Below, one piece after another: positions 19,149-36,054 of a DNA stretch of 51,245 bases. Numbering within the stretch: the stretch's first letter is position 1; each line of letters starts with the position of its first letter. The position numbers were made by a program, and so were the translations under genes. Under the pieces are notes generated by a model, which was not told the origin of the DNA, made no database searches, and saw only the letters and a program-made list of their open reading frames with translations. Origin of the DNA: Synergistaceae bacterium (GTDB lineage: Bacteria; Synergistota; Synergistia; Synergistales; Aminobacteriaceae); the NCBI GenBank assembly GCA_009776565.1, contig WRNQ01000001.1, forward strand, positions 1-51,245, in the 5' to 3' direction.

Positions 19149-19850
19149 CTACTGGATCATCTTTTGAAATCTGATGGTTATATCCTTATGGAGGCTGCCG
19201 TCCATCAAACATACAACTCTTTTGGTATATCTTATATGACTGAGTTCGTGTGTTATCATTACGATGGTCATGCCCTCGCGGTTCAGTCTTTGAAAAATAC
19301 TCAAGATTTCTTTAGTGGCTCTGGTGTCCAGGTTCCCTGTGGGCTCATCCGCCAATAATATCAAAGGATTATTTACAAACGCGCGCGCAATCGCAACCCT
19401 TTGCGCCTCTCCTCCTGAAAGCTCATGGGGCATATGGTTGGCTCTCTTCGATAGCATGACTTTATCCAAAGCTTCCAGTGCTTTTTGGCGCCTAATTTTT
19501 TTTGGCGTATTACAATAAATCATCGGAACTTCGACATTTTGAACTGCGGTTAGATTTGGCAATAAATTAAATGTTTGAAATACGAATCCAATTGCTTTGT
19601 TCCTTATTTCAGATAGTTCATCGGCCGTAAAATCAGACACTTTCTTACCATTAAGTATATATGTCCCCTCGGAGGGCTTATCCAGGCAGCCTAAAATGTT
19701 CATCAGCGTCGATTTACCTGAGCCGGATACCCCAACAATAGAAAGGAATTCGCTCTTTTCCACACTCAAGCTTACTCCTTTTAGCGCCTCCACACTAACT
19801 TTTCCGGAATATATTTTTTTTACGTCATTGATTTCCAATATCCTTTTCAT
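19149..19850 (-). CDS. ABC transporter ATPase, MacB/LolD type
   Basis: The 233-residue protein has Walker A VGVSGSGKSTLMNILGCLDK, Q-loop FVFQTFNLLPNLTAVQNVE, signature HELSGGEAQRVAIARAF, Walker B LLADEPTGNLD and the H-loop MITHE, the exact MacB/LolD pattern. It pairs with the FtsX-like permease and HlyD protein upstream. Together they form an export system likely for the peptide products. ATG 19850 (GGAGAAAAAT before it) matches the family N-terminus; earlier in-frame codons do not. Confidence 0.92.
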   Translation of the reverse strand: MKRILEINDVKKIYSGKVSVEALKGVSLSVEKSEFLSIVGVSGSGKSTLMNILGCLDKPSEGTYILNGKKVSDFTADELSEIRNKAIGFVFQTFNLLPNLTAVQNVEVPMIYCNTPKKIRRQKALEALDKVMLSKRANHMPHELSGGEAQRVAIARAFVNNPLILLADEPTGNLDTRATKEILSIFQRLNREGMTIVMITHELSHIRYTKRVVCLMDGSLHKDITIRFQKMIQ

Positions 19851-19936
19851 ATTTTTCTCCACATGCAAGATGTCTCGACCAGGTAGCAAACAGAAACGAT
19901 TTCATTAGCGGAAGCCTACCTATGCGTACCTTTCTA

Positions 19937-20041
19937 ATGCGGGCTAACGCCCGCAACCCAACTCGGCTCGGCGAAGCGCGGTTCCCCTCGCCTCACGCGG
20001 ACGATGTCCGCGCACTGCGCTCTCGCGCGGCGATTAGCAAC
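19937..20041 (-). repeat. ~107-bp dispersed GC-rich palindromic element, copy B
   Basis: Reverse complement of the element at 11403-11510. It keeps a perfect CGCGGAC-GAT-GTCCGCG hairpin and a GCGGGC-TAAC-GCCCGC hairpin. It fills the 241-bp gap between the exporter ATPase and permease genes, splitting an otherwise tight gene pair. Confidence 0.75.
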
Positions 20042-20091
20042 TTAATTCTTCAACAACTTGTTTTTCATTAGCGTTCCTGGAGATTAAGTTG

Positions 20092-21282
20092 CTAATTGGA
20101 GGTTAATGCCTTAATAGGATCCAGCTTTGCCGCGACTGTCGCCGGGTAAACCCCAAAAATAACGCCGATCAGTATTGAAATAAGCAGGGCGATCGCCGCA
20201 TAGAGAATTGAAATATGAGTTTCTATGTCCATCATTATGCCTATGAAATCCGAAAGCAAAACGCCTAGCGCCAAGCCTACGATACTTCCTAATGAAATCA
20301 CGATAATAGTCTCGAACAGAAATTGGAGGCAGATATCTTTGTATTTGGCGCCGAGGGATTTTCTGATACCTATCTCCCTTGTTCTCTCATTTACTGAAAT
20401 CAGCATAATATTCATTATGCCAATACCTCCGACAATAAGTGAGATGAACGCTACGAAAATCACAAATTTTGAAACATTGCCTATAACATCGTCGACTAGT
20501 TCTACCTCCGTAATCGGATTATATATGCTGTATCCGTCCTTCGTATTTCGCGAAATATCTATAATGCGCAGGATATCGTCGCTCGTCTCGTCAATCTGTT
20601 TTACGTCTTCAACTTTCACTTCAAGATAATCATATGTTAAAAGCGAGTTTGACTTTGCAAAAATATGGGCGCCGGTATAAACGTTAGGCGGGATCTGGAG
20701 GGTTTCATTATACCTGGCGCCCTCGATAACGCCAACAATCACAAAAGTCCGATGAACGTTCCCTACAGAAAAACCAATATTCTTGCCAATTACTTTAGTC
20801 CCGCCAAACATCAGGTTTGATAGATTGCTGTCAATAACGATAGAATTGCTTTCATTTGCTATATCGTTGTAATTAATAAATCTCCCCTCGAGCAGGTTGT
20901 AGTGAGTGGTAAATTTACTATCTTCCGTGCCTGCCACAATCCTTATGACTTTATTCTCGTTGCTCTTTTGGATAGAAACACTGCTGTACCCTGTGATGAA
21001 TCCGGTCACGTAGGAAATATTTGGATGATTTTTTAAAAGGTCTATATCGCCGCTGTTTAGCACAAACTTTGATTCCGAGAAATTGTTTTGCTGTAAAATG
21101 AGGTTACCAATGCCAAGTTCGCTGAAGCTGTCATTTATTACTGCTCTGAATCCCTCGCCCAAACCGGTGACTATTATAACTGAGGAAATGCCAATCAGAA
21201 CGCCGAGAACCGTTAAAAAAAGGCGGACTTTTTTTGAGACGACATTTATATATGCTGTTTCCAGGCAAGAAAAAATACTAAT
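20092..21282 (-). CDS. MacB/FtsX-type ABC transporter permease, non-ATG start
   Basis: The frame from 21282 encodes about 396 residues: an N-terminal membrane helix (LFLTVLGVLIGISSVIIV), a periplasm-type MacB domain, then three C-terminal helices with GGIGIMNIMLISVNERTREIGIRKSLGA, the FtsX signature written here only in part as GIGIMNIMLISVNERTRE. Starting at TTG 21162 would delete the first helix, so translation must start upstream. A stop lies just above; the only site with a GGAGGT at the right distance (7 bases) is ATT at 21282. Either ATT initiates or the start codon has mutated. Confidence 0.85.
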   Translation of the reverse strand: MSIFSCLETAYINVVSKKVRLFLTVLGVLIGISSVIIVTGLGEGFRAVINDSFSELGIGNLILQQNNFSESKFVLNSGDIDLLKNHPNISYVTGFITGYSSVSIQKSNENKVIRIVAGTEDSKFTTHYNLLEGRFINYNDIANESNSIVIDSNLSNLMFGGTKVIGKNIGFSVGNVHRTFVIVGVIEGARYNETLQIPPNVYTGAHIFAKSNSLLTYDYLEVKVEDVKQIDETSDDILRIIDISRNTKDGYSIYNPITEVELVDDVIGNVSKFVIFVAFISLIVGGIGIMNIMLISVNERTREIGIRKSLGAKYKDICLQFLFETIIVISLGSIVGLALGVLLSDFIGIMMDIETHISILYAAIALLISILIGVIFGVYPATVAAKLDPIKALTSN

Positions 21283-21346
21283 CTGTCACACCTCCAAAAA
21301 CCGGGTCGTTGGCGAGGCCCGCTCTGGCAACTCGCGCTCTCGTGGT

Positions 21347-22786
21347 CTAGTTTTTCAACTCCTCGACGATATCGCCTTCTTTTAGCGTTTTGTTCGGGTT
21401 CATAACATAACGTTCGCCGACTTCAACGCCGTCGATCACAATATCCAGATTGTTGAATTCCCCTGTCTTAACCAATCTTTTACTTATTCTATAGTTTTCA
21501 TCTACGATAAAAACAAAATCATCGCCATTTTCATCGGCAAGAATAGCCAATATCGGCGCCATTTTCACATCTCGAAGGTTCGCGACTGATAAATGAACAT
21601 CCACACTGTATCCGATCCTGATGTCTCTGACAGAATCCGGGAGCGGAGCTTTCACTTTAACGACGTCCTCATTGTTGCCCCTGTCGTCCATTCTTGTCTC
21701 TACGATGGTCGATATTGAGCTGATGTTTGCAGTGAACTCTTCGTTATGCAGAGTATCGCCGGCAATTGTAACGGCTTGGCCTATACTGATTTTATTCGCT
21801 TGGTTCTCCGGGATATAAAACTCTATGTTAAAATTGTCGTTTCTCATATTGATAACTTCGATCAGTTTCTGCCCTTTGGTTACATAATCGCCATTCTCCA
21901 CAAAGACTTCTTTTATCACACCCTTATGAGCGGAGACCTCTTCTAGCCTATAGCTATCTATAAATAGCCTGAGTTCGCTTATCTCGAGGTCTATTCTCTC
22001 CTTCTCATATAGCAATCGTTCGCGTGTAATTTCATTGAGTTGAAGTTCCTTTTGCGAGTCCGCGGCTTTCTGGTCGAGGGCGCTCTTTGCTATCTCGAGA
22101 GATTTCCTCTGATATCTGACGTCGCTTTCAACGCTCTCTATGTCATTAACTACGTCCCCGATTCTTCTATCGATTTCCTTTAGCACCGTGATCGAGTCTT
22201 CAAACTCGTTTCTCGATATGGCGTCCGCTTCATATAAAAACCTTTTACTTTCATATCTATCATATTCATCTTTGTAATCACTTTGGAGATAGGATAGGTT
22301 TTCGTAAAGGCTCCGGAGATTGCTGTTAAGGCTTTCGATGTTGTTTTCAAAATTCAGGATTGAATTCTGTTCGGCAAAAAGCGATACCTCCGTATAGGAA
22401 GCTTCAAGCCTTTCAATATCCGCATTTTTCGCCTGCAAATCAATAGTGAGTTTGTCCAGAGACATTTTTTTGTCGTTAATTAATTTATCGTCATATGTCA
22501 GCAACCTGTCGCTTTCATCAATAAAGTCGTTGTTTTTATAGCTGAAATCCTTTATTACGCCTTCATTCGAAGCGTATATAAACAAGGACTCTTTTGGGAT
22601 TATCTTACCAATTAATTGCTTATCAATATTTACGTCGCTTGTTTTCACAACGCCAATCCTAACCGGAAAAGCCACGCTTCTTACTTTCAAGCCTTCGCTA
22701 TTCATAGCCGTATAAAGTGCTAATCCCAAGATGATAAGCACTACGATCACGACAAAAACTCTTTCCTTTCTAAATGTAGATTTCAA
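21347..22786 (-). CDS. HlyD-family membrane fusion protein
   Basis: About 479 residues: one N-terminal membrane helix (VFVVIVVLIILGLALYTA), a lipoyl-like half (IGKIIPKESLFIYASNEGVI), a long coiled coil of roughly 200 residues (from DKLTIDLQAKNADIERLEAS), the second lipoyl half (GVIKEVFVENGDYVTKGQKL) and a beta-barrel/C-terminal domain (VDGVEVGERYVMNPNKTLKE). It links MacB-type transporters to the cell surface. TTG 22786 is preferred because GGAGGG lies 8 bases upstream; another TTG at 22816 is in frame but has no site. Confidence 0.9.
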   Translation of the reverse strand: MKSTFRKERVFVVIVVLIILGLALYTAMNSEGLKVRSVAFPVRIGVVKTSDVNIDKQLIGKIIPKESLFIYASNEGVIKDFSYKNNDFIDESDRLLTYDDKLINDKKMSLDKLTIDLQAKNADIERLEASYTEVSLFAEQNSILNFENNIESLNSNLRSLYENLSYLQSDYKDEYDRYESKRFLYEADAISRNEFEDSITVLKEIDRRIGDVVNDIESVESDVRYQRKSLEIAKSALDQKAADSQKELQLNEITRERLLYEKERIDLEISELRLFIDSYRLEEVSAHKGVIKEVFVENGDYVTKGQKLIEVINMRNDNFNIEFYIPENQANKISIGQAVTIAGDTLHNEEFTANISSISTIVETRMDDRGNNEDVVKVKAPLPDSVRDIRIGYSVDVHLSVANLRDVKMAPILAILADENGDDFVFIVDENYRISKRLVKTGEFNNLDIVIDGVEVGERYVMNPNKTLKEGDIVEELKN

Positions 22787-22835
22787 AATATGTCCCTCCC
22801 ACTTGTACCTAAGCAATGTTTTAAACGCGTTGATA

Positions 22836-23687
22836 TTATCTAAATAGATTTGATATCGTCCCCATGGAAAACGACGTCATTGAAGCCATTGAGATCGAAT
22901 ATATCAATAAAAACACTCCGCTGAACGCAATTGATTTGGAAGCCGAAAACTCGTTGATCTTTTTTATTCCGAAATAGATAATGACGGTGATCCAGAGACT
23001 GAAGATATTTATCGTCGTTGTAATCCAGTATAAAAAATTAAAATATTCGGGTTTCTCATAGAGAAAATATGACAACGCTAAAAATCCGTTCGTGTTTCCC
23101 GTGAATATGATTAAGGTATTATTGAACAGTACTCCAAAGATCAAAACGATGAACATATGGCTAATCAGAGAAAAATGTTGTCGATATTCACCTTTTCCCT
23201 TAAAAAGTTTTACAAAGATATGAAACAACAAGGCTATGAATGCGCTCGAAACAAATACTACTATTATCATTACACAATATATGACAAAAGCGGAATCCAG
23301 GCTGCTGTTCACGGCGCTGTTAAACTGTTCGATCAGTTGGTTCGCTAACTGATTGTCGATCGCGGCAAATCTATTGGCGATTTCCGCGCTTATCTCGTGA
23401 TTTCTTATACCGGATACTATTTGGTTTTGAAAAATGCTTGGCAATAGTAGTATTGCGATCAGCAAGTACGCCGACCTAAAACTCGGAAAGGCCTTAATAT
23501 TTTCTGCTAACTTTTGGGGCGCCAAAAACAAGCGCGTCAAACGATCGACCATATTCAGGCTCTTATCGCCTTTCGAGCTTTCCAAGATATCTTCGGTTTC
23601 ATTACCGGCTTCATTACCGGTTTCATTACCGGTTCTAATTATGTTTTCATTATTGCTATCCATTTCATTTCTGCATGAATAATTCAT
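22836..23687 (-). CDS. Yip1-family integral membrane protein
   Basis: The 283-residue protein has an acidic N-terminus containing a slippage-made GNETGNEAGNET repeat, then a SLNMVDRLTRLFLAPQKLAENI segment and five membrane helices (about 70-92, 130-155, 175-195, 215-235, 250-272), as in Yip1-domain proteins. Such proteins often stand beside MacAB-like exporters in Firmicutes. Its role here may be export or self-protection; this is inferred from position alone. Confidence 0.75.
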   Translation of the reverse strand: MNYSCRNEMDSNNENIIRTGNETGNEAGNETEDILESSKGDKSLNMVDRLTRLFLAPQKLAENIKAFPSFRSAYLLIAILLLPSIFQNQIVSGIRNHEISAEIANRFAAIDNQLANQLIEQFNSAVNSSLDSAFVIYCVMIIVVFVSSAFIALLFHIFVKLFKGKGEYRQHFSLISHMFIVLIFGVLFNNTLIIFTGNTNGFLALSYFLYEKPEYFNFLYWITTTINIFSLWITVIIYFGIKKINEFSASKSIAFSGVFLLIYSISMASMTSFSMGTISNLFR

Positions 23688-23730
23688 ACTTCCCTTTCTT
23701 TGATTTTTGTATCTCAGAGTACATACATAT

Positions 23731-24867
23731 TCATGAATGTCTTAAATTGGATAAAACTATTTTGTATTCGCCTGAGCGAAATATACTATGATATTTGAGG
23801 CAGAAATTGATATTCGAAATCAACAAAAAGGTAATTAAAACAATAGGAACAATGAGGGCTGGAATGATCCCATAATTCCCCAAATACCAATATGAACCAA
23901 AGACTACATAACCCCAAAAAACAGGGTTGAATATAAAGCAGACGAAGCCATAAAGTGAAGTCAGTGTTTTTTCTATTTTGCTCATTTTTAGTTTGCCAAA
24001 CTCAGGAAATCTAAAAATAAAGCATAAGAATACCACAATACTTTTGTCATATAGATTGTCGATCCCCAATACCGCACCGAGCAGCCAATACCCGTCATAC
24101 TTTGTGAATGGTATGAGATTGAAAAAATTGACCGCAAAGCTCAAAATAAAGCAATACAGCCAAATGTCAGACTTAAAAGCGACATACAAGACCGCATATA
24201 CAGCGCTCACTATACTGCTGCACATAAACCCGGATATAGCCACAACCGCCTTGTTGAGTTTGTTTTGTATAAGATACATATGATTTGTGTTGACATATAA
24301 CATCGGCATCAAATAAAACAATTTCAAGCCTACGCTTCCCGTCTTTCCGGTATATTTATAACAGGATGCGCTATGAGCAAATTCATGCGCTAACCCGCCT
24401 AACCTATTGAAAACAATTATACAAAAAAAACTTGTAAAGCTAATGTTAACAGCAGCAACGCTGTTTAAAACCAAGCTTCTATAATAAATCAGAAACCAAA
24501 CCGAACCGATTACAGACAAGAAAAACAGGATAACCCCAAGTGGCGAAATAAACGTCTTCAGAAAACGAAACAACCATTCAGCCTCTCCTTCTTTGCAAAA
24601 AACGAACAGCTTAATATCCCTCAAGTCGTATTTTTTACTGGTTTTGCCGGCGTTAAGAAATCCTGTTTGATTCAATTTATCTCGCAGGATTTCTTTATTT
24701 TCTACACTTATCCGATCAAACGTCGATGCATCGTTGCCGTCCAAAAGATGACAAAAAAAATCGAATTCTGTCAATCCCAACTTAAGGCACTTGCCATCAA
24801 GCTTATTTCTTATGATGTAGTAAGCATTATCAAAAAGCCTGGTTTCAAAATTATCTAATGTCTCCAT
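23731..24867 (-). CDS. M50-type intramembrane metallopeptidase (first of two)
   Basis: The 378-residue membrane protein has the zinc motif HEFAH (RLGGLAHEFAHSASCYKY) and a second site NLIPFTKYDGYWLL, matching the HExxH and (N)xPxxxxDG motifs of M50 peptidases. Six or more hydrophobic helices surround them. The N-terminal ~100 residues are soluble with a PqqD/RRE-like look (LDGKCLKLGLTEFDFFCHL). Daptide clusters include such a peptidase, thought to remove the leader. It lies directly after the first precursor gene, which supports leader cleavage as its job. Confidence 0.8.
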   Translation of the reverse strand: METLDNFETRLFDNAYYIIRNKLDGKCLKLGLTEFDFFCHLLDGNDASTFDRISVENKEILRDKLNQTGFLNAGKTSKKYDLRDIKLFVFCKEGEAEWLFRFLKTFISPLGVILFFLSVIGSVWFLIYYRSLVLNSVAAVNISFTSFFCIIVFNRLGGLAHEFAHSASCYKYTGKTGSVGLKLFYLMPMLYVNTNHMYLIQNKLNKAVVAISGFMCSSIVSAVYAVLYVAFKSDIWLYCFILSFAVNFFNLIPFTKYDGYWLLGAVLGIDNLYDKSIVVFLCFIFRFPEFGKLKMSKIEKTLTSLYGFVCFIFNPVFWGYVVFGSYWYLGNYGIIPALIVPIVLITFLLISNINFCLKYHSIFRSGEYKIVLSNLRHS

Positions 24868-25275
24868 ACAAAACTCCCAAAACTAATAAAAATCAAATTT
24901 TCTCTTATTTCGAGTCAGTGCTGTACTCCTCATGAACTTAAAAAACCGTTGGTAAGATTTCAAATGGAATGAACAGTTGATAATAATATGGTATTTTGCT
25001 GGTCAACTAGATATGATAATTGATGATCCTCAATTATCCTTGATGATCCTTGATGATCCTCAATTATCCTCGATGATCCTCGATATAAGCAAGATTTCTT
25101 ATGCTCTTCTCAATAATCATTTATAATAGAAATTATTTGTAGAAAAAATCATAGTTTCTCCTGTGGACTAATTAGTGAAGCAGAAAATAATACTCCATAA
25201 CTGGTCTTTTTTACAACACCATTGAGAATTATTTTTTATGTTTCACCGGTGTAAGCGTAATTCATAAGAGCAATT
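24868..25275. other. Gap with GATGATCCTCAATTATCCT repeats
   Basis: No gene was found. At 25013-25084 there are about seven 10-bp units alternating TGATGATCCT and CAATTATCCT. On the minus strand CAGGAGAAACTATG near 25151 could start an 11-codon frame (MIFSTNNFYYK), too short to call. Confidence 0.6.
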
Positions 25276-25419
25276 TTAAGTAAAAGTAATAATTGCCAGA
25301 GCTGTAAGGACGAGAGCTGTGCCAACACCAACGCCGACGCCGAAACCTTCGATAAAATCTCTCGCGTTGCCCAATTCTTCCATGGACTCTAATTCTTCGA
25401 ATATAAGCTCGTTTCTCAT
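25276..25419 (-). CDS. RiPP precursor peptide 1, C-terminus Thr-Phe-Thr
   Basis: Found by translating the gap. The 47-residue product has an acidic leader-like half (MRNELIFEELESMEELGNAR) and a hydrophobic Gly/Val-rich half (DFIEGFGVGVGVG, then an Ala/Leu/Ile/Thr stretch) ending in Thr-Phe-Thr. GGGGGTG lies five bases before the ATG. A short acidic leader and hydrophobic helical core ending in Thr is what daptide precursors look like, and the tailoring genes around it fit. The motif F-[IV]-x-G-F-x-x-G-x-G-V is shared with the second precursor. It has no Cys and few Ser, so azole or lanthionine formation is unlikely. Confidence 0.75.
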   Translation of the reverse strand: MRNELIFEELESMEELGNARDFIEGFGVGVGVGTALVLTALAIITFT

Positions 25420-25431
25420 TCATTCACCCCC

Positions 25432-25459
25432 TTTATAGACCCTATGCCATGATTGTCAA
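25432..25459 (-). promoter_or_regulatory. Consensus promoter abutting the precursor 1 ribosome site
   Basis: TTGACA (25459-25454) and TATAAA (25437-25432) are 16 bases apart. The -10 touches the GGGGGTG site, so a start at the usual distance would fall inside that site and leave almost no leader. It may give leaderless mRNA, or be a chance match. Confidence 0.4.
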
Positions 25460-25518
25460 CTGTTCTTCCATCTGAATGATAATTCTACAAATAATAATCT
25501 AACCCTGGTAAAAAAGAA

Positions 25519-25695
25519 CTATTTTTGCCGTTTTGAATAATTGATAAAATTAATCAAATAGAAAGCGTAACTTGCAATGACAAAGAGATGCAATGGGTTT
25601 AAGGTTTTGTAAACAATTGCGTCATATAGTAAAAACCCCAGATTAACAACATTCACCAATGTAAAAATCAACAAAACAGCCTTTCTGAACTTCAA
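25519..25695 (-). CDS. Small two-helix membrane protein in the RiPP cluster
   Basis: A 58-residue frame starting with TTG 25695, six bases after GAGGGGGT. It has a basic start (MKFRKA), one hydrophobic helix (VLLIFTLVNVVNLGFLLY), a short loop (KTLNP) and a second helix (LHLFVIASYAFYLINFI), ending in SKRQK. It lies between YcaO and precursor 1. Small two-helix proteins in such clusters are often immunity proteins, but nothing identifies this one. Confidence 0.6.
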   Translation of the reverse strand: MKFRKAVLLIFTLVNVVNLGFLLYDAIVYKTLNPLHLFVIASYAFYLINFINYSKRQK

Positions 25696-25744
25696 ACTAA
25701 TACCCCCTCATAGAATCTGCATTTTTTGTCCGACGTCTCCACTT

Positions 25745-27559
25745 TCATTGAACATACTTCATATACTTTTCAACTGCTTTTTTATACTTGAATAAGTCTT
25801 CCGCATACTCGTTGATTGAAAAATCTGGCGCCCCTGTATCAATACACGGGTACTGCTTTTCAAATATTTTTGACTCGTCATTAAAAATCTCGTCAATTCT
25901 GCCACATACAGAAAAATCAAAAAACTTCTGCAGGTAGCATATTAACTCGTCGTGCTCAAGCCCGTTAATTTTTCCAGTAAAATATTGATATAGCGCGTCA
26001 TAGAAAGGATTGCTCGTGTCAAGTTCATTTTTTAAAAATATGATTATACTCATTATAGAATTTGACGCTGAGCTATAGTCCTTTAAAAAAGCATGGCACA
26101 TAGCCGTCATGTACATATTGTCGACTCCGTGCTCCTTTCCTTCATACGCATATGAAGACAAAAACCCGGACATGCCTCCAAGAGTATTCTCATTTAGATA
26201 ATTCCTGAAATGTATAAGAGTTCCCAGAAGATACTTGCAATTGTTCCTATCTATTATCGAGGGGTGGTTCAACAAACTTCTGATATGAAACCTTGTGTTC
26301 TGCGCCTCGTATTCCGCATCAGAAAAGCACCGCATCTCTGAAAAGCCCGGAATCAGAATGTGATAGCTACTGAATCCTGTATACGACACATCATGAGCCA
26401 ATACACACAAGTCACTTTCCTCAAATTTTTTAAGCGCAAGTTTCATCAGGTATTTATTGTCAACAACACTTTCATTTCCCATTGGTACAAAATCATAAGA
26501 CGGTTTTTCGAGCATGATTTCGTACGGATAATCACTTTTTGAACAGACGAAAGAGTTGACCTGATTAAAATCTGTGCTAGTCATTGAGTTGCTGAAATCG
26601 AGATTCGAGTTCTTTGAAAAATCATGCAAATCCGCTCCCTGCATGGCTTCTGTAAATATGCGTTCCAGAGCGATTCTCGGATTAACATGAGAGCCAAGTT
26701 TAAATCCATATTTCCCCGTGTTCTTTTCTATTACTAGCAACCCTACGACGGGGTATTTCCCCCCGATAGAGCAATCCTTGATGATAAACGTGTAATTTTT
26801 CATTTGCTGTGCTTTTAGGTAAAGTTCATATATGTTTTCAAACGACGCCAGATATGAAATCGGAATATCAGGCAAAGAGAGTTTTTTTTCAATGATCTCT
26901 TTTAGAGCAGCCCGCTCAAAAATTTCACTAAGGCCTTGTACAAGCGCCTCTTCCCTTGAATTTCCCGCGCACATGCCGTTGCTGCCATAAGCGAAGTTAT
27001 ATAAAAAGTATGGCGCGTGTTCCACACTGCCTTTCGTGATATTATCAAATGGTACGCACAAAAATCTATTCTTAATCCTGAAGAAATTGTAATCCATCTT
27101 TTGGAGTTTATTCAGCACGTCGATTTTCTTCTGTCGATCGCCTTGCGCCAACTCTCTCTCGGAAAACAAAAATTTGACAAATTCTCCATTTTCTTCAACC
27201 AGTTCTTCAGCCGTTAAAAAAACTTCATCAGGGAAAAAATTGTATCTAAAGTCGCCGGAAGACAGCAATGTCGCATAGGCATGGACACTGATGAGCTTCA
27301 TATTTTGAAGCCTTTCCAGAAATTCGGCGTACGCGCTTGCCCGCGCGTAGACTTCCGACAAGCCTTTCCCATTGGTTCCTATACTTGAACCTTTTATCGT
27401 CAATCTGAGAGAATACGTGCCTATGCTGCTCTTCGTCAGCATCTTTTCCTCAACTTCAATGCCAATCTTGTGTAAAATTTCCTTTACTATACTGACAGTT
27501 TCCGCCGGACTTCTTTCTTTGCAATGCTCTAGCATATACTCCGGGGTGTTGGCGATCAC
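25745..27559 (-). CDS. YcaO-domain ATP-dependent cyclodehydratase-like enzyme
   Basis: The 604-residue protein carries the YcaO nucleotide motifs: SAYAEFLER (S-x3-E-x2-ER), QGLSEIFER (Q-x3-E-x2-ER) and a later ERIFTEAMQ. YcaO enzymes activate a backbone amide with ATP to make azolines, thioamides or amidines. The C-terminus (KYMKYVQ) lacks the PxPxP end of azoline-forming members, hinting at other chemistry. The N-terminal ~50 residues and the C-terminal ~180 are less typical. The start is GTG 27559 after GGAGGATGTGA. It lies next to an E1-like gene, the usual YcaO partner type. Confidence 0.88.
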   Translation of the reverse strand: MIANTPEYMLEHCKERSPAETVSIVKEILHKIGIEVEEKMLTKSSIGTYSLRLTIKGSSIGTNGKGLSEVYARASAYAEFLERLQNMKLISVHAYATLLSSGDFRYNFFPDEVFLTAEELVEENGEFVKFLFSERELAQGDRQKKIDVLNKLQKMDYNFFRIKNRFLCVPFDNITKGSVEHAPYFLYNFAYGSNGMCAGNSREEALVQGLSEIFERAALKEIIEKKLSLPDIPISYLASFENIYELYLKAQQMKNYTFIIKDCSIGGKYPVVGLLVIEKNTGKYGFKLGSHVNPRIALERIFTEAMQGADLHDFSKNSNLDFSNSMTSTDFNQVNSFVCSKSDYPYEIMLEKPSYDFVPMGNESVVDNKYLMKLALKKFEESDLCVLAHDVSYTGFSSYHILIPGFSEMRCFSDAEYEAQNTRFHIRSLLNHPSIIDRNNCKYLLGTLIHFRNYLNENTLGGMSGFLSSYAYEGKEHGVDNMYMTAMCHAFLKDYSSASNSIMSIIIFLKNELDTSNPFYDALYQYFTGKINGLEHDELICYLQKFFDFSVCGRIDEIFNDESKIFEKQYPCIDTGAPDFSINEYAEDLFKYKKAVEKYMKYVQ

Positions 27560-27635: not shown

Positions 27636-27703
27636 TTATATACATTCATATGTATTAACATGTATTCACATGTATTCACATGTATTCACATGCATTCACA
27701 TGC
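27636..27703. repeat. ACATGTATTC repeat
   Basis: About six units of TTCACATGTA/TTCACATGCA lie in tandem before the E1-like gene's stop, in the E1-YcaO gap. No gene is seen in 27560-27704. Confidence 0.7.
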
Positions 27704-27704
27704 A

Positions 27705-29048
27705 TTAGGCCTTTTTAACGTCCAGATAAATTAGTAAAGCTTGAAAAAGCACGGCGGCAAGGAAAATAAAACTCAACAGCAGCACTACAGCGTACACCGA
27801 ACCCAAAACATCGTTCAAACCCTGAATGCTTGCAAAAGCAGTATCTCTTAGCAGTATCACACTCATGGCAAATAGATACAGTAACAAGTTTATAAATCCT
27901 ATTTTATATACATTGTCATTTTCATCCGTTATAAAAATTGGCGCGATAACGGTATAAACGAAAGCCAGAATTCTTGTCGTCATTTGCGCTTCATGAAATA
28001 TTACGCCCAAAAGAAGAATACAAATCGCTATTAGATTATGTATGTTGAGAACCGAATAATGGTTGGCGCCGTCAAGTAAATACTTTTTTTTGGGTCTAAG
28101 TGAAAATGCTCTATTACTGATAAAATTCTCTAAATAAATATTATCTATATATTTTAAGCCGCCCAAGCCAAGTAACACCTTGAACGCCTCCTCGGACACG
28201 CTTGCGGCTATCTGATACATCACAAAACTGACTGAAGGAGCTATTCCGGAAATTCTAATAGAATTCGTGCTATAATCGTTGAAATCACACGCGTTGGAAC
28301 TCTTACCGGGTATAAATGTCGGCCCGATATACTGGCCAATAGACGTTAACGTTGAGGAAATATATTTGATATGATTTTTCACGCAAACGCTGTCCAGCCA
28401 CAATGAAAAATAAATCGGCGAATCAAGTGATTTAATTATGAGGTCATACTTATTCTTGAGACAAATATCTGACAATTGCTCTTCGTTTTCGATTTTGAGG
28501 TTAATGGCGTTGATTATTATTTCGCTATTGATCGCCTCCAATTTCGCTTTCAGTACATCCACCTTGAAAAGCCCAATGTCATTGCGATCATAAAGTATCT
28601 GCCTGTTTAGATTGTGTTCCTCAACCACGTCGAAATCCAGTAAATCTATGCGTCCGACGCCAAGCGTTGTTAAGTTCCACGAGACATGAGTACCGATGCC
28701 GCCACACCCCAGGATAAGAACGCTCTTATCTTTTAAGGCATTTGCTTGTTGGAGCATCCCACTGTGATAATAAAATGACCTGGTCCTAGAGTAATAACCT
28801 GTGTAATCCAGTTGTCGAGGTAGAATATACCCATTTTTTAGCCAGTCGGCAATACTGTTATAGCCAAAAATGTCTGACAATTCTTTTCTCCCGTATCCCC
28901 GCCCATTTATCATCTCCAGAAATACTTCTTCCTGAGCGCCGGTGAAATCATAAGTGTTTTTTTGCTCAAGTCCGATTGCATCGGCAAAAATATACTTATT
29001 CTTGTCTTTAACAATTGTTATGTATTGATTGATATAGAAAAGATTCAT
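27705..29048 (-). CDS. E1/ThiF-like adenylating enzyme with C-terminal membrane domain
   Basis: The 447-residue protein has a winged-helix-like N-terminal part (1-105, GRKELSDIFGYNSIADWL), then a ThiF/E1 adenylation domain: VLILGCGGIGTHVSWNL, LLDFDVVEEHNLNRQILY and DLIIKSLDSP. The last ~110 residues form four hydrophobic helices (from about 335), which E1-like RiPP enzymes normally lack. E1-like proteins present peptide to YcaO or adenylate a C-terminal carboxylate, as MccB does. GAGGGG precedes the ATG. No CxxC zinc pair is visible. Confidence 0.85.
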   Translation of the reverse strand: MNLFYINQYITIVKDKNKYIFADAIGLEQKNTYDFTGAQEEVFLEMINGRGYGRKELSDIFGYNSIADWLKNGYILPRQLDYTGYYSRTRSFYYHSGMLQQANALKDKSVLILGCGGIGTHVSWNLTTLGVGRIDLLDFDVVEEHNLNRQILYDRNDIGLFKVDVLKAKLEAINSEIIINAINLKIENEEQLSDICLKNKYDLIIKSLDSPIYFSLWLDSVCVKNHIKYISSTLTSIGQYIGPTFIPGKSSNACDFNDYSTNSIRISGIAPSVSFVMYQIAASVSEEAFKVLLGLGGLKYIDNIYLENFISNRAFSLRPKKKYLLDGANHYSVLNIHNLIAICILLLGVIFHEAQMTTRILAFVYTVIAPIFITDENDNVYKIGFINLLLYLFAMSVILLRDTAFASIQGLNDVLGSVYAVVLLLSFIFLAAVLFQALLIYLDVKKA

Positions 29049-29071: not shown

Positions 29072-30166
29072 TTAACCCTGTATCAGTTGCAGATATGACA
29101 GAATATTTGTCGCCGCTATTAGTATTAGGAACGGGATATATAAAACGCTCAAAGCCCCGAAGCAGATATAGAATATGTCATTTATTCCACTCATGCGCTT
29201 CATCTCGATGACGTTATACTTTGTTTTAGTCCTAAATCCGAATCTTCTAAGCACGCCTAAAATAACAAACCAGAATATACCAATTGACTTTTCCCGCAAA
29301 TAGTCCTCGTTGATGATCTCCTGAAAGATATAATAGCCATCTAATTTTAGGAATATCACAACATTGGCAATTATGACGCCAAAGTTGGAAATGACGGAAA
29401 GTAAGAATATGACGCTAATATCTGTATCCTTAAAAAACAGCCCCCAAAGTATCAGCAGTATACCAATTAGCAATACATTTGCGAAAGCCCCTCCCAAAAG
29501 TATCAATATCTTATGCGCTTTATTTTTGATCGTCCTAAGCAGGCTTACATTCGTATATGCTAACGGAGTAAAAAAATACAACATAATTCCAACCTCCGGA
29601 ACATTTACTTTGTAATACCTGGCGATAACAAGATGTCCCAACTCATGCAATGTAATGAACAGCAACGTAATAAGAAAAAGAATGATATAGTTTTGATAAT
29701 TATTGACCAAATTCTCAAGGTCAGCGACATATGTACTATTCAGGATAAGGAATACACATCCGGCTAAAAACACCGGCAATGAGAAATATAGCAACAAAAC
29801 TGCCAGTATTTTTGTCACAGGGTGATCCGATGGCAGCAGTTTATCTCCTTCAAATAATCCTATCCTGAGTTTAAAAATATCTTTAGCGCTAATTTTATTT
29901 ACTGTATTTATAACGCCCAAGGACTCAAACTTTATGAGCAGTAATTCGATTAAATCGACGTTAAATTTCCCGCTTAACGCGCTCAGCTCCTCAAGCGTCT
30001 TCGTGCCGTCACAATTTGAGATCACCTTATATTCATCCTTGCCAATAATGAATATCTTTTTCCTCACTTTGCAAAACACATAATACTGCGAATCATTTAT
30101 AGCGACGATCTTTATGCTTTTGCTAAGACATGGCTTATCAATCGTAAAAATAATTAAACACCCCAA
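29072..30166 (-). CDS. M50-type metallopeptidase with PqqD-like N-terminal domain (second of two)
   Basis: The 364-residue protein has a PqqD/RRE-like N-terminal domain (residues 20-85, CDGTKTLEELSALSGKF), then about six helices with HELGH (LFITLHELGHLVIARYYKV) and the second metal site VIFLKLDGYYIF. It is the better match of the two to leader-binding maturation peptidases. The TTG at 30166 has no ribosome site. GGGGTG ends 7 bases before an ATT at 30151, which may be the real start. Confidence 0.8.
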   Translation of the reverse strand: MGCLIIFTIDKPCLSKSIKIVAINDSQYYVFCKVRKKIFIIGKDEYKVISNCDGTKTLEELSALSGKFNVDLIELLLIKFESLGVINTVNKISAKDIFKLRIGLFEGDKLLPSDHPVTKILAVLLLYFSLPVFLAGCVFLILNSTYVADLENLVNNYQNYIILFLITLLFITLHELGHLVIARYYKVNVPEVGIMLYFFTPLAYTNVSLLRTIKNKAHKILILLGGAFANVLLIGILLILWGLFFKDTDISVIFLLSVISNFGVIIANVVIFLKLDGYYIFQEIINEDYLREKSIGIFWFVILGVLRRFGFRTKTKYNVIEMKRMSGINDIFYICFGALSVLYIPFLILIAATNILSYLQLIQG

Positions 30167-30335
30167 ACGTTAAAATAGAATAATCACAGGCAAAACCGCA
30201 AGAACTAATAACTCAGTCGGAATGTATAGCAAAGTAAAAATAAAAGAAGCATTTTCTTTTTAATAAACTAAAAATACATTGCCGAACGCCATAAAAGGCG
30301 ACAAAAATGTTACACAGAGCTCAATATCAGTAAAA

Positions 30336-30473
30336 CTAGCAGCAGGCGATAGCTACGATTGCAACGACGCCAAGGCCGGTAACAAAGCCAGCGACAAAAT
30401 ATCCGTCCCCTGTTGCTTCGATATTCTCAACTTCCGTTATATCAAAAGCATTAACGTTAAATGCATGATCCAT
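30336..30473 (-). CDS. RiPP precursor peptide 2, C-terminus Ala-Cys-Cys
   Basis: A 45-residue frame found by hand. Its leader-like half is acidic (MDHAFNVNAFDITEVENIEA) and is followed by TGDGYFVAGFVTGLGVV and a short hydrophobic end, AIVAIACC, giving a double Cys at the very C-terminus. GGGGGATGAATT precedes the ATG. It shares the F-[IV]-x-G-F-x-x-G-x-G-V motif with precursor 1, so the two are related. It lies between the aminotransferase and the second M50 peptidase. The terminal Cys pair is a plausible target for YcaO/E1 or for oxidative decarboxylation. Confidence 0.75.
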   Translation of the reverse strand: MDHAFNVNAFDITEVENIEATGDGYFVAGFVTGLGVVAIVAIACC

Positions 30474-30569
30474 AATTCATCCCCCAATTCATATTATTAT
30501 TTTTCACTTCATTTCCGACTAATTTATTACATAGGCAGTTGCCTGTGATTATTCACATTCGCCCTTCAC

Positions 30570-31892
30570 TTAACAAATCTCGTATTCATATAAAGCGTTT
30601 TTGATGATCCTTGATATCATTCTGGATTCCCGCGGCGGAGTGCAGTAAATAGGCATTAGGATTATTGAGGATGTCAGTCCGCTGATAAACCCGAAACCAA
30701 CTACACAGCCAAGATCATATATCTTGGAAACTATTCTAAATAGCGTATTTTCATCAATCGGAGCGCCCTTTACGTCCACAATGTCAACCGCGAACATAAG
30801 CCCTGCCGTCCTAATTTCATACACACATTCAAAAATTGAAAGCTCATTCCGCAAACTTAAGTCAAAAGAATCACTTAAGTCCTTAACCCTTTGAGCCATA
30901 TCGTCTTTTAACAACTCGTTAATTGTCGCTATGGAAGCGGCGGCGCACACAGGGTTGCAGTTTTGAGTCGAGAGGTGATAAAATATCTCATTTTTCTGAT
31001 TAAACAACTCACATATATCTCGGGAAACACACACCGCTCCGAAAGGGAGATAGCCATTGGTAACGCCCTTTGATAAAGCGATAATTTGGGGCTTTATACC
31101 ATATTTTTGAAATGAGAAGAGGGCGCCGGTCCTATAAAAACCGGTGGCGACTTCATCGCATATAAAAAGAACGCCATTTTCGGCGCATAACTTGTATAAG
31201 GTTTTGATATACTCTTCGAAAACGGGTATAACCCCCGCTGATGACAAAACAGTTTCCACAATGACTGCTGACAGGCTCTCTTTTACCTCAGAAAACTCAC
31301 TATTCAAGGTATCCAGCATCCTCTCCCTGCAGTCTTTTTTTATATTGTTCGTTTCACAGCAACGGCAATAAGGCATGGAAAATTTTATAAAACCATCTAC
31401 AAATGGCGCATAATCTCTTTTATGAGCCTCGTCATAGCTTGTGGCGCTCATTGAACCATAGTAGTTTCCGTGATAAGAATTGCTGATAACGCCAATCAGG
31501 GATCCTGCCCGCCCGGAAATTGCGGCGTACTTACGCGCAAGTTTAATCGCTACCTCAATCGACTCGGAGCCGGAACAGGTGTAAATTATTTTTTCAATTT
31601 CATCATGAGTTATATCATGGAGCAAACTTGATAAGTTTTGAATCATTTCAGTGGTAAACCTGATCGGGTTAACATATGGAAGAGTATTTAGCTGCGAATT
31701 AACGGCGTCGATAATACACTTTTTGCCATAACCCAGATTCACATTCCAAAGCCCGCTGTATGCGTCGATGCGTTTAATTCCCTTTTCGTCATATATGTAA
31801 CAGCCCTCAGCTTTTTCAGCCCACAGATCGCCTGTGAAATCAGGTCTTTTTAATGGACTCCAACAGCGTTTTGCCTGAGGCAAAGCAACCAC
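30570..31892 (-). CDS. Class III PLP-dependent aminotransferase
   Basis: The 440-residue protein has the class III pattern: SLIGVISNSYHGNYYGSMSA, IVETVLSSAGVIPVFEEYI, the aspartate in LFICDEVATGFYRTGALF and the PLP lysine in IALSKGVTNGYLPFGAV. These enzymes transfer amino groups to terminal aldehydes or ketones. In daptide clusters one aminates the ketone left after the C-terminal residue loses CO2; I infer the same kind of role here. The listed GTG at 31892 overlaps its own GAGGGG site; TTG 31883 may be the start. Confidence 0.88.
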   Translation of the reverse strand: MVALPQAKRCWSPLKRPDFTGDLWAEKAEGCYIYDEKGIKRIDAYSGLWNVNLGYGKKCIIDAVNSQLNTLPYVNPIRFTTEMIQNLSSLLHDITHDEIEKIIYTCSGSESIEVAIKLARKYAAISGRAGSLIGVISNSYHGNYYGSMSATSYDEAHKRDYAPFVDGFIKFSMPYCRCCETNNIKKDCRERMLDTLNSEFSEVKESLSAVIVETVLSSAGVIPVFEEYIKTLYKLCAENGVLFICDEVATGFYRTGALFSFQKYGIKPQIIALSKGVTNGYLPFGAVCVSRDICELFNQKNEIFYHLSTQNCNPVCAAASIATINELLKDDMAQRVKDLSDSFDLSLRNELSIFECVYEIRTAGLMFAVDIVDVKGAPIDENTLFRIVSKIYDLGCVVGFGFISGLTSSIILMPIYCTPPRESRMISRIIKNALYEYEIC

Positions 31893-31903
31893 CCCTCATT
31901 ATT

Positions 31904-31937
31904 TATTCATTCATTCATTCATTCATTTATTTATTGT
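31904..31937. repeat. TTCATTCATT 4-bp repeat
   Basis: About seven copies of ATTC/ATTT in tandem between the methyltransferase and aminotransferase genes. Confidence 0.6.
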
Positions 31938-31965
31938 GTCAGGTATTTTTCCAATGTATAATCAG

Positions 31966-32763
31966 TTATTTTTCTAATATATAGAATAAAAAATTCTCAT
32001 AATTGGCTTTGAGTTCCTGCACTGTGCATTTGCTGAATTTACTCTCTGAAATCAATTGGTCTATAAAGCGCCTGGTCAGTTTTTTTTTGTTTGTGTATGA
32101 TATATATCGCCTTACAGCTTCGCCTTCAAGCACAACCTCAAAATACAGGTTACAGATAACGCGCCCGGGGACATAATCGATAAAGTCTCCCATTAAGAGA
32201 GTCCCTTCAACGCCATTTATGACAATTGATTCCGAAAACGCCGGGCCTTTACTTTTTTGCTGATCTTCTTTATAAAGAATACAGTCAAATATAAACTTCC
32301 CCTCCGTCTCAAGCACGTCATACACTTCATTTATCAACTTCAGCAGGAGATTCCTGTTTTCCGATAATATGCAAATTGTTGTGGCTGGCAATATAACGCT
32401 GTTATACTTACCACAAAATTCCATTTTGAATATATCGCCCCTTGTAAAACTAATCCTCTTTTGAACACCGGTCACCATGGATTTTATTTTTCGGGAAAAA
32501 ATAGCAAGCATGTCCAAAGACGCGTCAACGCCGTGAACACGCAGACCTTTCTGTGCTAACGGGATTGCGATCCTTCCAGTTCCACAACATAATTCCAACA
32601 CGTCCCTGCCGGCGCTCATACACTCGGACGAATATATTTCCAGCTCTCCCTCATTCACGGCATAACAATCATAAATATCTGCAAAGATCCCTTCATATGG
32701 GGCAACTTCAATAATATCTTTATGTAGAACTCTTTTTTGTTCAAAAATATCAAAGTAAAACAT
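31966..32763 (-). CDS. Class I SAM-dependent methyltransferase
   Basis: The 265-residue protein has motif I DVLELCCGTGRIAIPLAQKG, followed by VHGVDASLDMLAIF (motif II) and FTRGDIFKMEF (motif III). The fold is the small-molecule N-/O-methyltransferase type. In the daptide pathway a methyltransferase dimethylates the new terminal amine; co-location with the aminotransferase suggests the same order here. Confidence 0.88.
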   Translation of the reverse strand: MFYFDIFEQKRVLHKDIIEVAPYEGIFADIYDCYAVNEGELEIYSSECMSAGRDVLELCCGTGRIAIPLAQKGLRVHGVDASLDMLAIFSRKIKSMVTGVQKRISFTRGDIFKMEFCGKYNSVILPATTICILSENRNLLLKLINEVYDVLETEGKFIFDCILYKEDQQKSKGPAFSESIVINGVEGTLLMGDFIDYVPGRVICNLYFEVVLEGEAVRRYISYTNKKKLTRRFIDQLISESKFSKCTVQELKANYENFLFYILEK

Positions 32764-32781
32764 ACACTAATCACATCTTTC

Positions 32782-34500: not shown

Positions 34501-34595
34501 GTTTACAGCACTCCTTCTTAGAGCCTATCTAAACATCAATCGAAACAATAGCACAGAAAGATATCAGTTAGATTCCAAGTGTTTTTGTTTTATAT

Positions 34596-35327
34596 TTATT
34601 TTGCCGTCCAACCTCCATCAACTACGAGATTATGCCCGGTGATCATTTCGTTTTCACCTGACAATAAAAAATTTACCGCGCGAACAATATCTGCATGGTC
34701 GCAATACCTTTTCAGCGGGATATTATTAAGGTATTCCTTCCTTTTGCTCGTGTTAAGCAGAATATCTTGGTTACTTTTTGACAAAATAAACGTTGGCGAT
34801 ACACAGTTGACTTTTATACCATAACAAGCCCATTCCAGAGCTAGGGCTTTGCAGAGATTAATAAGCCCGGCCTTACTCGCGCAATACGCCGCCCTGTCTA
34901 CGTTGGCGACAACGCCATGCTGTGAGGCAATACATACTATACGCCCACCAATTTCATTCGCGACCATGTTCGCGCACGCTTCTTTCATCACAAAAAACGC
35001 GCCTTTCAGGTTCACACCCATAATGAGATCCCAGAGTTCCTCCGAGGTGTCGAACGCGTCAGACAAAAAGTTAATCCCCGCTAAATACGCCAATTCAGAT
35101 ATTACCAGGCGTTTTTCGCGCATTTCTTTAAACGCTGTTTTAATTTCTTCGTTGTTATTGACATTGATTTTATAGATAAATGTGTTGGAAAATTCGTTTT
35201 CGGTGACAAAGTTCACCAGTTCATCATATTTTTCGTCATTTTCCGTGAGTATATAATCGCGTTTGCGACCTTTCATTAGCAGATTTTCACCAATTCCGCT
35301 GCAGGCGCCAACTATTAAGGTAAACAT
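34596..35327 (-). CDS. Short-chain dehydrogenase/reductase
   Basis: The 243-residue protein has the SDR nucleotide site TLIVGACSGIGENL, the NAG-like LAGIN, catalytic Ser in VCIASQHGVV, YxxxK in AAYCASKAG, and the C-terminal HNLVVDGGW end. It would oxidise or reduce a carbonyl/alcohol with NAD(P). A C-terminal Thr hydroxyl in a peptide is a plausible substrate: oxidation gives a beta-keto acid that loses CO2, and the resulting ketone could go to the aminotransferase. GGGGAG lies before the ATG. Confidence 0.88.
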   Translation of the reverse strand: MFTLIVGACSGIGENLLMKGRKRDYILTENDEKYDELVNFVTENEFSNTFIYKINVNNNEEIKTAFKEMREKRLVISELAYLAGINFLSDAFDTSEELWDLIMGVNLKGAFFVMKEACANMVANEIGGRIVCIASQHGVVANVDRAAYCASKAGLINLCKALALEWACYGIKVNCVSPTFILSKSNQDILLNTSKRKEYLNNIPLKRYCDHADIVRAVNFLLSGENEMITGHNLVVDGGWTAK

Positions 35328-35349
35328 ATTTACTCCCCAAAATAATTAT

Positions 35350-35440
35350 TATTAAAATAAGATGTGGGTAAAACTAACTTCCTTATTATGGCGGGTATAA
35401 CTAACTTTATTATCAAGGCAGGTATAACTAACTTCCAAAT
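35350..35440. repeat. Three direct repeats of GGTATAACTAACTT between loaP and the SDR gene
   Basis: GGGTAAAACTAACTT, GGGTATAACTAACTT and AGGTATAACTAACTT occur at about 30-35-bp intervals in the loaP-SDR gap. They could be regulator or RNA-binding sites within the operon or another tandem repeat. Confidence 0.6.
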
Positions 35441-35453
35441 TAAAAATGCTGAA

Positions 35454-35990
35454 TTAGTCTTGAGACACTTTATTGATAATCTCTAAAGCAAGCGTGATAT
35501 CCCTCGTATCACCCATTATTGGAATCGATATCACAGCAGTTTGTCTACGTTTGTTGATTTTCTTTATTCTACTTTCTAAACCAAACAATGCTCCGGCAAT
35601 TATTTTGACTCGATCCCCCTCAATAAAACCGCGCGAGATATCCATACAAAACTCTGAGTTCATTAATCGTTGTAATAGTATTTGTTCCGCTTCTTTCAAA
35701 GCCATGTTATATCTATCGCTGCCATAACTTAAAAAGAACCAGGCGTCTTTGGTAAAGGAAATAATTGGAATTACTTCCTTAAGTACCTCATCTGCGCTTT
35801 TTTCAGTTCGTATAAAAACATATCCGGGGAAGCAGGCTTTTACTACATGAATGGTCTCGTTGCTTTTGATATGCGACCATATTTTTGTCGGGATAATTGG
35901 TGTGTAAATACTTCTGTCAAGATGTTTGTTGAGAATGCGAATCACTTCTTCTTCTCTGCCAGTTCGCACGTACAATACGTACCAGTTCGT
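35454..35990 (-). CDS. loaP: LoaP/NusG-like processive antitermination factor, likely non-ATG start
   Basis: The frame encodes an NusG-type N-terminal domain: NWYVLYVRTGREEEVIRIL then HVVKACFPGYVFIRT, followed by a KOW-like C-terminus (FIEGDRVKIIAGALFGLESR). About 178 residues is the size of LoaP and other specialised NusG paralogues that help RNA polymerase cross long biosynthetic operons. Starting at TTG 35975 would cut off the conserved N-W-Y-V strand, so translation must begin upstream. GGGGAGG stands 7 bases before an ACG at 35990, where an ATG is expected. It is the first gene of the cluster. Confidence 0.85.
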   Translation of the reverse strand, partial: TNWYVLYVRTGREEEVIRILNKHLDRSIYTPIIPTKIWSHIKSNETIHVVKACFPGYVFIRTEKSADEVLKEVIPIISFTKDAWFFLSYGSDRYNMALKEAEQILLQRLMNSEFCMDISRGFIEGDRVKIIAGALFGLESRIKKINKRRQTAVISIPIMGDTRDITLALEIINKVSQD

Positions 35991-36006
35991 GTAAATTCCT
36001 CCCCGC

Positions 36007-36054
36007 AGCTCTTATGGATAGAGCTCCGCTACGGAGACTAAGCAAATAAGAGCT
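36007..36054 (-). promoter_or_regulatory. Two-tier RNA hairpin in the loaP leader
   Basis: AGCTCTTAT (36007-36015) pairs with ATAAGAGCT (36046-36054), enclosing an inner CTCCG-CTA-CGGAG hairpin (36024-36036). It lies within 20 bases of the loaP start. LoaP proteins recruit through RNA hairpins in operon leaders, so this is a candidate site; it has no U-run and so is not a plain terminator. Confidence 0.55.

Follow-up and report, generated by a model that had tools for sequence, protein, structure and literature searches.

We analysed a stretch of 51,245 nt from a Synergistaceae bacterium (contig WRNQ01000001.1, assembly GCA_009776565.1), called the window below, which carries a daptide operon with an added module of a MccB-like E1 enzyme and a YcaO protein. 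The predicted operon for ribosomally synthesized and post-translationally modified peptides (RiPPs) is encoded on the minus strand between roughly 36.0 and 19.1 kb, covers about 17 kb and begins with the gene for a LoaP antiterminator (Table 1). As measured from the program-listed starts of the open reading frames (ORFs), adjacent genes are separated by 18–169 nt in 12 of 15 cases and by 184, 202 and 408 nt in the other three. The gene combination is real and recurrent. The first-pass annotation had proposed a one-strand RiPP operon with LoaP first, a daptide-type gene set with two hydrophobic precursors and an unusual combination of this set with YcaO and E1 genes, and these proposals stand: every gene of the list is encoded on the minus strand and the LoaP model is over its cut-off, daptide models are the best NCBIfam matches of several enzymes and two precursor ORFs were picked by a filter, and the combination recurs in two other genomes, at the loci L001 and L104.

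Table 1. Features of the window and of related loci mentioned in the text (positions without a locus name refer to the window)
Feature	Position	Strand	Evidence or remark
LoaP antiterminator, first gene	35454..35975	-	NF033641 133.5 bits, cut-off 125 passed
SDR oxidoreductase, predicted Bacillota-type DapC	34596..35327	-	PF13561 149 bits
DapB-like protein, 572 aa	32782..34500	-	counterparts in 8 clusters; Cys motif
SAM methyltransferase, predicted DapM	31966..32763	-	NF041820 best, 100.5 bits
Class III aminotransferase, predicted DapD	30570..31892	-	PF00202 263 bits; NF041821 best, 332 bits
Precursor 1, 45 aa, Cys-Cys end	30336..30473	-	ORF filter; Cys-/Asp-ended counterparts in L001, L104
M50 peptidase M50a, E1/YcaO-linked type	29072..30166	-	NF041824 111 bits; tree clade
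MccB-like E1, predicted N-terminal RRE-like domain and four C-terminal helices	27705..29048	-	PF00899 132.5 bits
YcaO without PxPxP end	25745..27559	-	PF02624 148 bits
Hydrophobic small protein, 58 aa	25519..25695	-	no family match
Precursor 2, 47 aa, Thr end, daptide type	25276..25419	-	NF041808 32.4 bits
M50 peptidase M50b, daptide-linked type	23731..24867	-	NF041824 139 bits
Yip1/YknW-like membrane protein	22836..23687	-	PF04893 36.1 bits; NF052650 43 bits, cut-off 110 missed
HlyD/MacA-like adaptor	21347..22816	-	PF13437; TIGR01730 93.4 bits, cut-off 94.9
MacB-type FtsX permease	20092..21162	-	PF02687, PF12704
ABC ATPase	19149..19889	-	PF00005 113.5 bits
Second ABC ATPase and ABC-2 permease, directly downstream	16845-18917	-	
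Terminator-like hairpin	36666-36638		upstream of LoaP
Short tandem repeats	25013-25084, 27644-27706, 31896-31935, 35366-35436, 36127-36223, 36500-36591, 36701-36839		units of 4 to 32 bases
Copy of DapB-like protein in L109	L109:11167-13527		Pfam radical SAM domain; CxxxCxxC
Copy of DapB-like protein in L108	L108:7160-9292		CxxxCxxC
Cluster with PxPxP YcaO and ThiF fragment	L161:296-3065, 8183-9050		daptide type
Cluster with three Ala/Gly-rich precursors	L002:9393-14749		
B12-binding radical SAM protein	L104:11068-12429		Pfam
B12-binding radical SAM protein	L102:7707-9011		Pfam
B12-binding radical SAM protein	L160:15324-16628		BLAST
ORF with Phe end, set aside	L001:1612-1806		more than 4 kb upstream of the cluster
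ORF with Gly end, set aside	L108:1460-1687		internal start of a 157-aa ORF

The daptide branch of the operon is well supported by homology. Daptide models were the best NCBIfam matches of the aminotransferase (NF041821 daptide_amino, best of 69 models), the S-adenosylmethionine (SAM) methyltransferase (NF041820 daptide_MTase) and both M50 peptidases (NF041824 daptide_HExxH), all of them below the curated cut-offs of 450, 175 and 300 bits, respectively, and the methyltransferase and the M50 peptidases of L001 are likewise under these cut-offs. The short-chain dehydrogenase/reductase (SDR) is 39–54% identical to the SDRs in L001, L102, L104, L158, L160 and L161. In daptide clusters of the Bacillota an SDR (PF13561) replaces the iron-type dehydrogenase (PMC10036551). 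The window agrees with this type in having a Thr-ended precursor with a daptide leader, a PF13561 SDR instead of an iron-type alcohol dehydrogenase and a class III aminotransferase.

The first daptide step requires DapB, a protein that joins a domain of unknown function to a RiPP recognition element (RRE) (PMC10036551). The 572-aa protein, which had been taken for a SPASM-like addition to the daptide set, is most likely the pathway's own DapB with a predicted C-terminal RRE-like fold, as judged from its alignments and its structure model. Its match to the SPASM region is very weak (16 bits), it aligns at 20–30% with the proteins at the same pathway position in L001, L104 and L102, and its counterparts adjoin the aminotransferase and the methyltransferase in 8 of 8 clusters (L001, L104, L102, L158, L160, L161, L108 and L109). 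The aminotransferase loci without the DapB and methyltransferase set (L107, L110 and L162) were dropped prior to counting, so the presence of DapB is partly a criterion of choice. A CxxC(x5)CxxC motif is kept in eight of the nine DapB-like proteins, including that of the window. In the model, residues 501–570 form three strands followed by three helices, with 10-residue means of the per-residue confidence (pLDDT) of 52–90; this C-terminal stretch has no Pfam match to PqqD/RRE. A role as radical SAM enzyme was considered and rejected, as the protein has no Pfam radical SAM match and the CxxxCxxC that it carries at residue 120 is not shared by the relatives in L001, L104 and L102. Among the relatives, the copy in L109 has a Pfam radical SAM domain and a CxxxCxxC is found in those of L108 and L109, both from Lachnospirales, which suggests from the sequences that the DapB of this group was derived from a radical SAM-SPASM enzyme. 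A homologue search with the alignment of the DapB-like proteins recovered the window itself alone.

The E1 enzyme is closest to MccB of microcin C in both sequence and fold. A glycine loop and the NLNRQ pattern are present in 22 of 22 aligned E1 sequences and the D-G-K residues in 21 of 22, and a predicted N-terminal RRE-like domain is fused to the adenylation domain, as membership of the MccB family requires. The enzyme is probably membrane-anchored. In a tree of 118 sequences, from which the four most distant of those listed were left out, the E1 enzymes of the window, L001 and L104 fall into a 42-member clade (support 0.999), where they stand in separate subclades together with nine of the ten E1 enzymes from shared contigs. 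These are ten contigs of equal length common to the E1 and YcaO homologues in the protein database (119 and 118 entries with lengths, from the best 120 of 173 E1 matches and the best 120 of 1389 YcaO matches). The E1-like partners in the cyclodehydratase pairs of azoline type, i.e. of thiazole/oxazole-modified microcins (TOMMs), are, as far as is known, degenerate. That the E1 is such a partner was rejected, since its adenylation motifs are intact and MccB is nearest; of the 77 matches in the E1 comparison 60 were listed, and neither TruD nor LynD is one of these 60, which is no proof of their absence.

The YcaO protein has no C-terminal PxPxP, a motif found in none of the 34 aligned sequences including the window's and also absent in L001, L104 and L002; it is present in L161. 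With no PxPxP in the YcaO and intact motifs in the E1, the two do not form an azoline pair of a PxPxP YcaO and a degenerate E1-like partner. The nearest solved structure is E. coli YcaO (243 bits), the residues that we take to be ATP-binding are invariant across the 34 sequences, and the end of the protein is shorter by some 10–25 residues than in most relatives. The cluster in L161 is of daptide type and holds a PxPxP YcaO, a 204-aa ThiF fragment without a glycine loop; its five precursor ORFs all end in Thr, and three of these are identical to one another. The first-pass annotation had taken the YcaO to be foreign to the daptide set, but published daptide clusters often contain YcaO proteins (PMC12338566). 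There the enzyme DapY, which has a PxPxP end, uses the secondary amine derived from the terminal Thr to form a C-terminal imidazoline in peptides of Thermobifida fusca and Streptomyces azureus, and the only core residue conserved in this pathway is the C-terminal Thr (PMC12338566).

The two putative precursors of the window differ in their ends. Precursor 1 ends in ...IACC and scores 19.6 bits with NF041808, below the cut-off of 25; precursor 2 ends in ...IITFT, has no Cys residue, passes the same cut-off and misses that of NF041806 (34.2 bits, cut-off 40). A physical filter (ribosome-binding site, acidic leader and uncharged hydrophobic end), which was devised after both ORFs had been seen, matched these two and no others on both strands of the 51 kb, and under the same filter 40 dinucleotide shuffles gave a mean of 0.3 matches, with two matches in one shuffle out of 40. 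The precursors end in ...YLAC, ...VTFT and ...MAAT in L001 and in ...IAAD and ...VAFT in L104, so that exactly one non-Thr precursor per E1-bearing cluster is present in three of three (Cys in the window and L001, Asp in L104). In the six daptide-type clusters without this E1, all 18 picked precursor ORFs (15 distinct sequences) end in Thr: two each in L102 and L108, one in L109, three in L160 and five each in L158 and L161. At the level of clusters, a non-Thr precursor thus occurs in 3 of 3 with E1 versus 0 of 6 without (Fisher p = 1/84, post hoc), or versus 0 of 4 (p = 1/35) when L108 and L109, which have no clear SDR, are left out. This pattern is a lead and not a proof, because the data in which it was noticed also served to test it, and the choice of some precursors was made by eye. 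Both precursors of L102 were missed by the first precursor filter; the second missed those of L158 and L109, for which the unfiltered list was inspected by eye, and also that precursor of L104 which ends in Thr and was found otherwise. Two filter matches were set aside as not being precursors, one with a Phe end far from the L001 cluster and one with a Gly end in L108, the latter being an internal start (Table 1).

The related clusters were found by several searches. L001 (Shuttleworthella satelles DSM 14600) was found when species genomes were searched with the YcaO alignment and the best 80 of 591 relatives were taken; among these 80 it alone has strong E1 and daptide matches by BLAST, and L013 has a weak E1 match of 47 bits. 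The genes listed for L001 are a methyltransferase, three precursors, M50a, E1, YcaO, M50b, a DapB-like protein, an aminotransferase, an SDR and ABC genes. L104 (genome G567, clostridial, from the family of Clostridium gasigenes) has two precursors, M50a, E1, ABC genes, a B12-type radical SAM protein, YcaO, SDR, DapB-like protein, aminotransferase and methyltransferase. The proteins of both are 28–44% identical to those of the window (20–24% for the DapB-like protein, 20% in L001), and the combined gene set occurs in three different orders in the three clusters. Daptide-type clusters without E1 are L102, L158, L160 and L161 (SDR, DapB-like protein, methyltransferase, aminotransferase and M50), as well as L108 and L109 (aminotransferase, methyltransferase and DapB-like protein), which show no clear SDR or M50 in the stretch seen and were kept in the counts. 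L159 (contig end, no precursor visible) and L163, whose DapB and radical SAM proteins are 94% and 97% identical to those of L109, were dropped prior to counting. One search gave seven matches, all of which were followed to their loci. The aminotransferase searches gave matches in 53 of 200 and 16 of 249 genomes, and those above 346 bits were examined; more daptide clusters may hide among the matches of 320–346 bits, which make up most of the list and lie outside the examined set. The E1 search found two carriers among 397 genomes of the family to which S. satelles belongs (this species and G288), one of 206 in the family of Clostridium gasigenes and one of 4 in the genus (both the L104 genome), and one of 391 in the class and one of 98 relatives (both S. 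satelles). With so few carriers, the E1 is rare among the genomes examined. The plasmid collection gave no match to E1 and YcaO at the limits set, and none of 48 stretches from viral contigs searched with the E1 alignment was confirmed. The E1 relative in G288 has 348 aa and is encoded on a contig of 7.3 kb (L106) together with AAA and U32-peptidase genes, where no RiPP set was seen. B12-binding radical SAM proteins are encoded in L104, L102 and L160 and not in the operon of the window.

The M50 peptidases are split as well. In the tree, M50a of the window, M50a of L001 and the M50 peptidases of L104 and L002 form one clade (support 0.998), and M50b of the window, M50b of L001 and the peptidases of L102, L158, L160 and L161 lie outside it with weak mutual support. 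The M50a gene adjoins the E1 gene in three of three E1 clusters, and all four M50 peptidases found in the daptide-type clusters without E1 (L102, L158, L160 and L161) are outside the M50a clade. In L002 (Butyrivibrio sp. MC2013) the YcaO is 38% identical to that of the window. It is accompanied by an ABC exporter, a peptidase of the M50a type and three Ala-rich precursors that do not end in Thr, and E1, aminotransferase and methyltransferase matches were not found in the 15.5 kb of this locus. Since L002 has both YcaO and M50a with no daptide genes or E1 found, this module appears able to exist alone. The three precursors of L002 are rich in Ala/Gly and their last dozen residues contain no Cys, Ser or Thr, which makes an azoline at the precursor end unlikely there.

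Considering these results together, we assume that two precursors and two enzyme sets lead to two peptides. One would be a daptide, made from the Thr-ended precursor, in which an amine replaces the C-terminal acid; the other would come from the Cys-ended precursor, be bound and adenylated by the E1 and likely be changed further by the YcaO. We give this reading a probability of about 0.5. By homology to the tested pathways, the SDR and the DapB-like protein would oxidize and decarboxylate the terminal Thr, the aminotransferase would install the amine, the methyltransferase would then methylate it and M50b would cleave off the leader. A second branch is suggested by the three E1 clusters, the protease clade and the resemblance to MccB. 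In it, the predicted N-terminal RRE of the E1 would bind the Cys-ended precursor by its leader. The ATP site of the enzyme would activate a carboxylate, which by analogy with MccB is most likely that of the C-terminus, the YcaO would activate a backbone amide, and M50a would cleave off the leader. The MacAB-type genes may serve in product export or self-protection.

Several points weigh against two such branches. Only three E1 clusters have DNA context, and the last-residue pattern is post hoc and partly based on eye-picked precursors. The non-Thr residue varies (Cys, Cys and Asp) and is explained by no single known E1 or YcaO reaction; MccB acts on Asn, and no Asn-ended precursor-like ORF is present in the window. 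The acidic leaders are alike in both kinds of precursor, and therefore the RREs could cross-bind. The N-terminal match of the E1 to MccB has a high overall root-mean-square deviation (5.3–6.6), none of the four putative RRE stretches has a Pfam PqqD/RRE match, and the model of the DapB-like protein is poor outside its last 70 residues. Moreover, the protease split is not strict, as L104 has an M50a-type peptidase only and no M50b within the 35 kb seen, and no M50 was identified in L108 and L109. E1 and YcaO need not belong to one branch, because L002 carries YcaO without E1, and the YcaO could serve the daptide branch here, because the tested DapY enzymes act on the Thr-derived amine.

This last point leads to an alternative that we consider rather unlikely, namely that all tailoring takes place on the Thr-ended precursor, with the YcaO forming an imidazoline, the E1 acting as its leader-binding partner and the Cys-ended peptide being a helper or unmodified. 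The DapY precedent in T. fusca and S. azureus (PMC12338566) and the cluster in L161, which joins the daptide set to a PxPxP YcaO, a ThiF fragment and Thr-only precursors, speak for it; however, the YcaO of the window lacks PxPxP like its 33 aligned relatives and has E. coli YcaO as its closest solved structure, the E1 is MccB-like and retains its adenylation motifs, and the YcaO relative in L002 stands beside non-Thr precursors with no aminotransferase, methyltransferase or E1 match in the 15.5 kb of that locus. The first-pass annotation had considered possible one peptide with both an internal backbone change by YcaO and E1 and a daptide amine end. In favour of this, all enzymes lie in one operon and the two leaders are similar, but the Thr-ended precursor contains no Cys, and a separate non-Thr precursor and an M50 of its own clade accompany the E1/YcaO set in every E1 cluster. 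The tested actinobacterial dehydrogenase MpaC accepted a Thr end only and rejected Ser, Cys, Asp and other ends, the SDR type not being part of that test (PMC10036551). Because the E1 clusters carry a precursor without the C-terminal Thr that MpaC required, in addition to the own-clade M50, a single doubly modified product is not supported and seems improbable to us. The same annotation had named as a counter-case that the two enzyme sets always occur separately with their own precursors: their co-occurrence goes against the first half of this, and the second half seems to hold, with a separate precursor apparently assigned to each set; moreover, L002 has a relative of the YcaO without the daptide set. 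Finally, the ORFs ending in Cys or Asp might be daptide precursors that have decayed or lost their function, with E1 and YcaO coming from an unrelated neighbouring pathway. This would agree with the low NF041808 score of precursor 1 and the varying terminal residue, but is very improbable, since each of the three clusters has such an ORF, preceded by a ribosome-binding site and with an acidic leader, and E1, M50a and YcaO are interleaved with the daptide genes in three different orders.

Beyond the two-peptide reading, a wider one appears possible, although doubtful: a portable RiPP module of a MccB-like membrane E1, a non-PxPxP YcaO, a dedicated M50 and a Cys/Asp-ended precursor would have become part of daptide operons in three or more lineages, and one operon would then yield a pair of peptides with opposite C-terminal chemistry, an amine on one and an adenylation-activated C-terminal carboxylate on the other. 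If so, this would be a new class of C-terminal modification and, to our knowledge, the first case in which an E1 and a YcaO jointly modify a Cys or Asp at the peptide end. Apart from this wider reading, the operon offers a testable case in which two C-terminal peptide chemistries may occur side by side in a single operon, and the enzymes acting on a precursor might be read from its last residue, Thr versus Cys/Asp. Enzymes with new modifications of the C-terminus are wanted for peptide drugs and bioconjugation.

Around these genes, the 58-aa hydrophobic protein has likewise hydrophobic small ORFs as counterparts in L104 and L001 and possibly confers immunity, and the same role is possible for the ABC ATPase and ABC-2 permease pair that follows directly downstream on the same strand. 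Upstream of LoaP a terminator-like hairpin was found, and the same scan gave weaker hairpins in coding sequence. Short tandem repeats, whose unit differs each time, occur in several gaps inside and just upstream of the operon.

In the literature no paper describing the combined daptide/E1/YcaO set was found, the supplements being outside the search, so that S. satelles may be in a published list; the part of PMC10352776 covered here does not describe the combination. By the terms searched, the MccB-like E1 family in Clostridia is unmentioned in the main texts of both daptide papers: 'ThiF' is in neither main text (PMC12338566, PMC10036551) and 'E1-like' is not in that of PMC12338566.

Compared with MccB of microcin C7, the E1 of the window has four additional C-terminal helices, adjoins a YcaO gene, and has candidate substrates that end in Cys or Asp, not Asn. 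PaaA of pantocin A acts on an internal Glu pair, and the E1 is less similar to it than to MccB. Micrococcin/thiocillin clusters share with the window a YcaO, an E1-like protein and an SDR, but differ by an azoline-type YcaO, a thiopeptide core and the lack of a known aminotransferase. Their SDR is related to the Bacillota DapC (PMC10036551). The daptide core together with a YcaO is common to the window and the DapY imidazoline pathway, with PxPxP in DapY only (PMC12338566). The daptides themselves (mpa cluster and Bacillota type, PMC10036551) have, like the window, an SDR, a DapB-like protein, a class III aminotransferase, a methyltransferase, an M50 peptidase and a Thr-ended precursor, to which the window, with its enzyme models below the cut-offs, adds the MccB-like E1, the non-PxPxP YcaO, the second type of M50 and the Cys-ended precursor.

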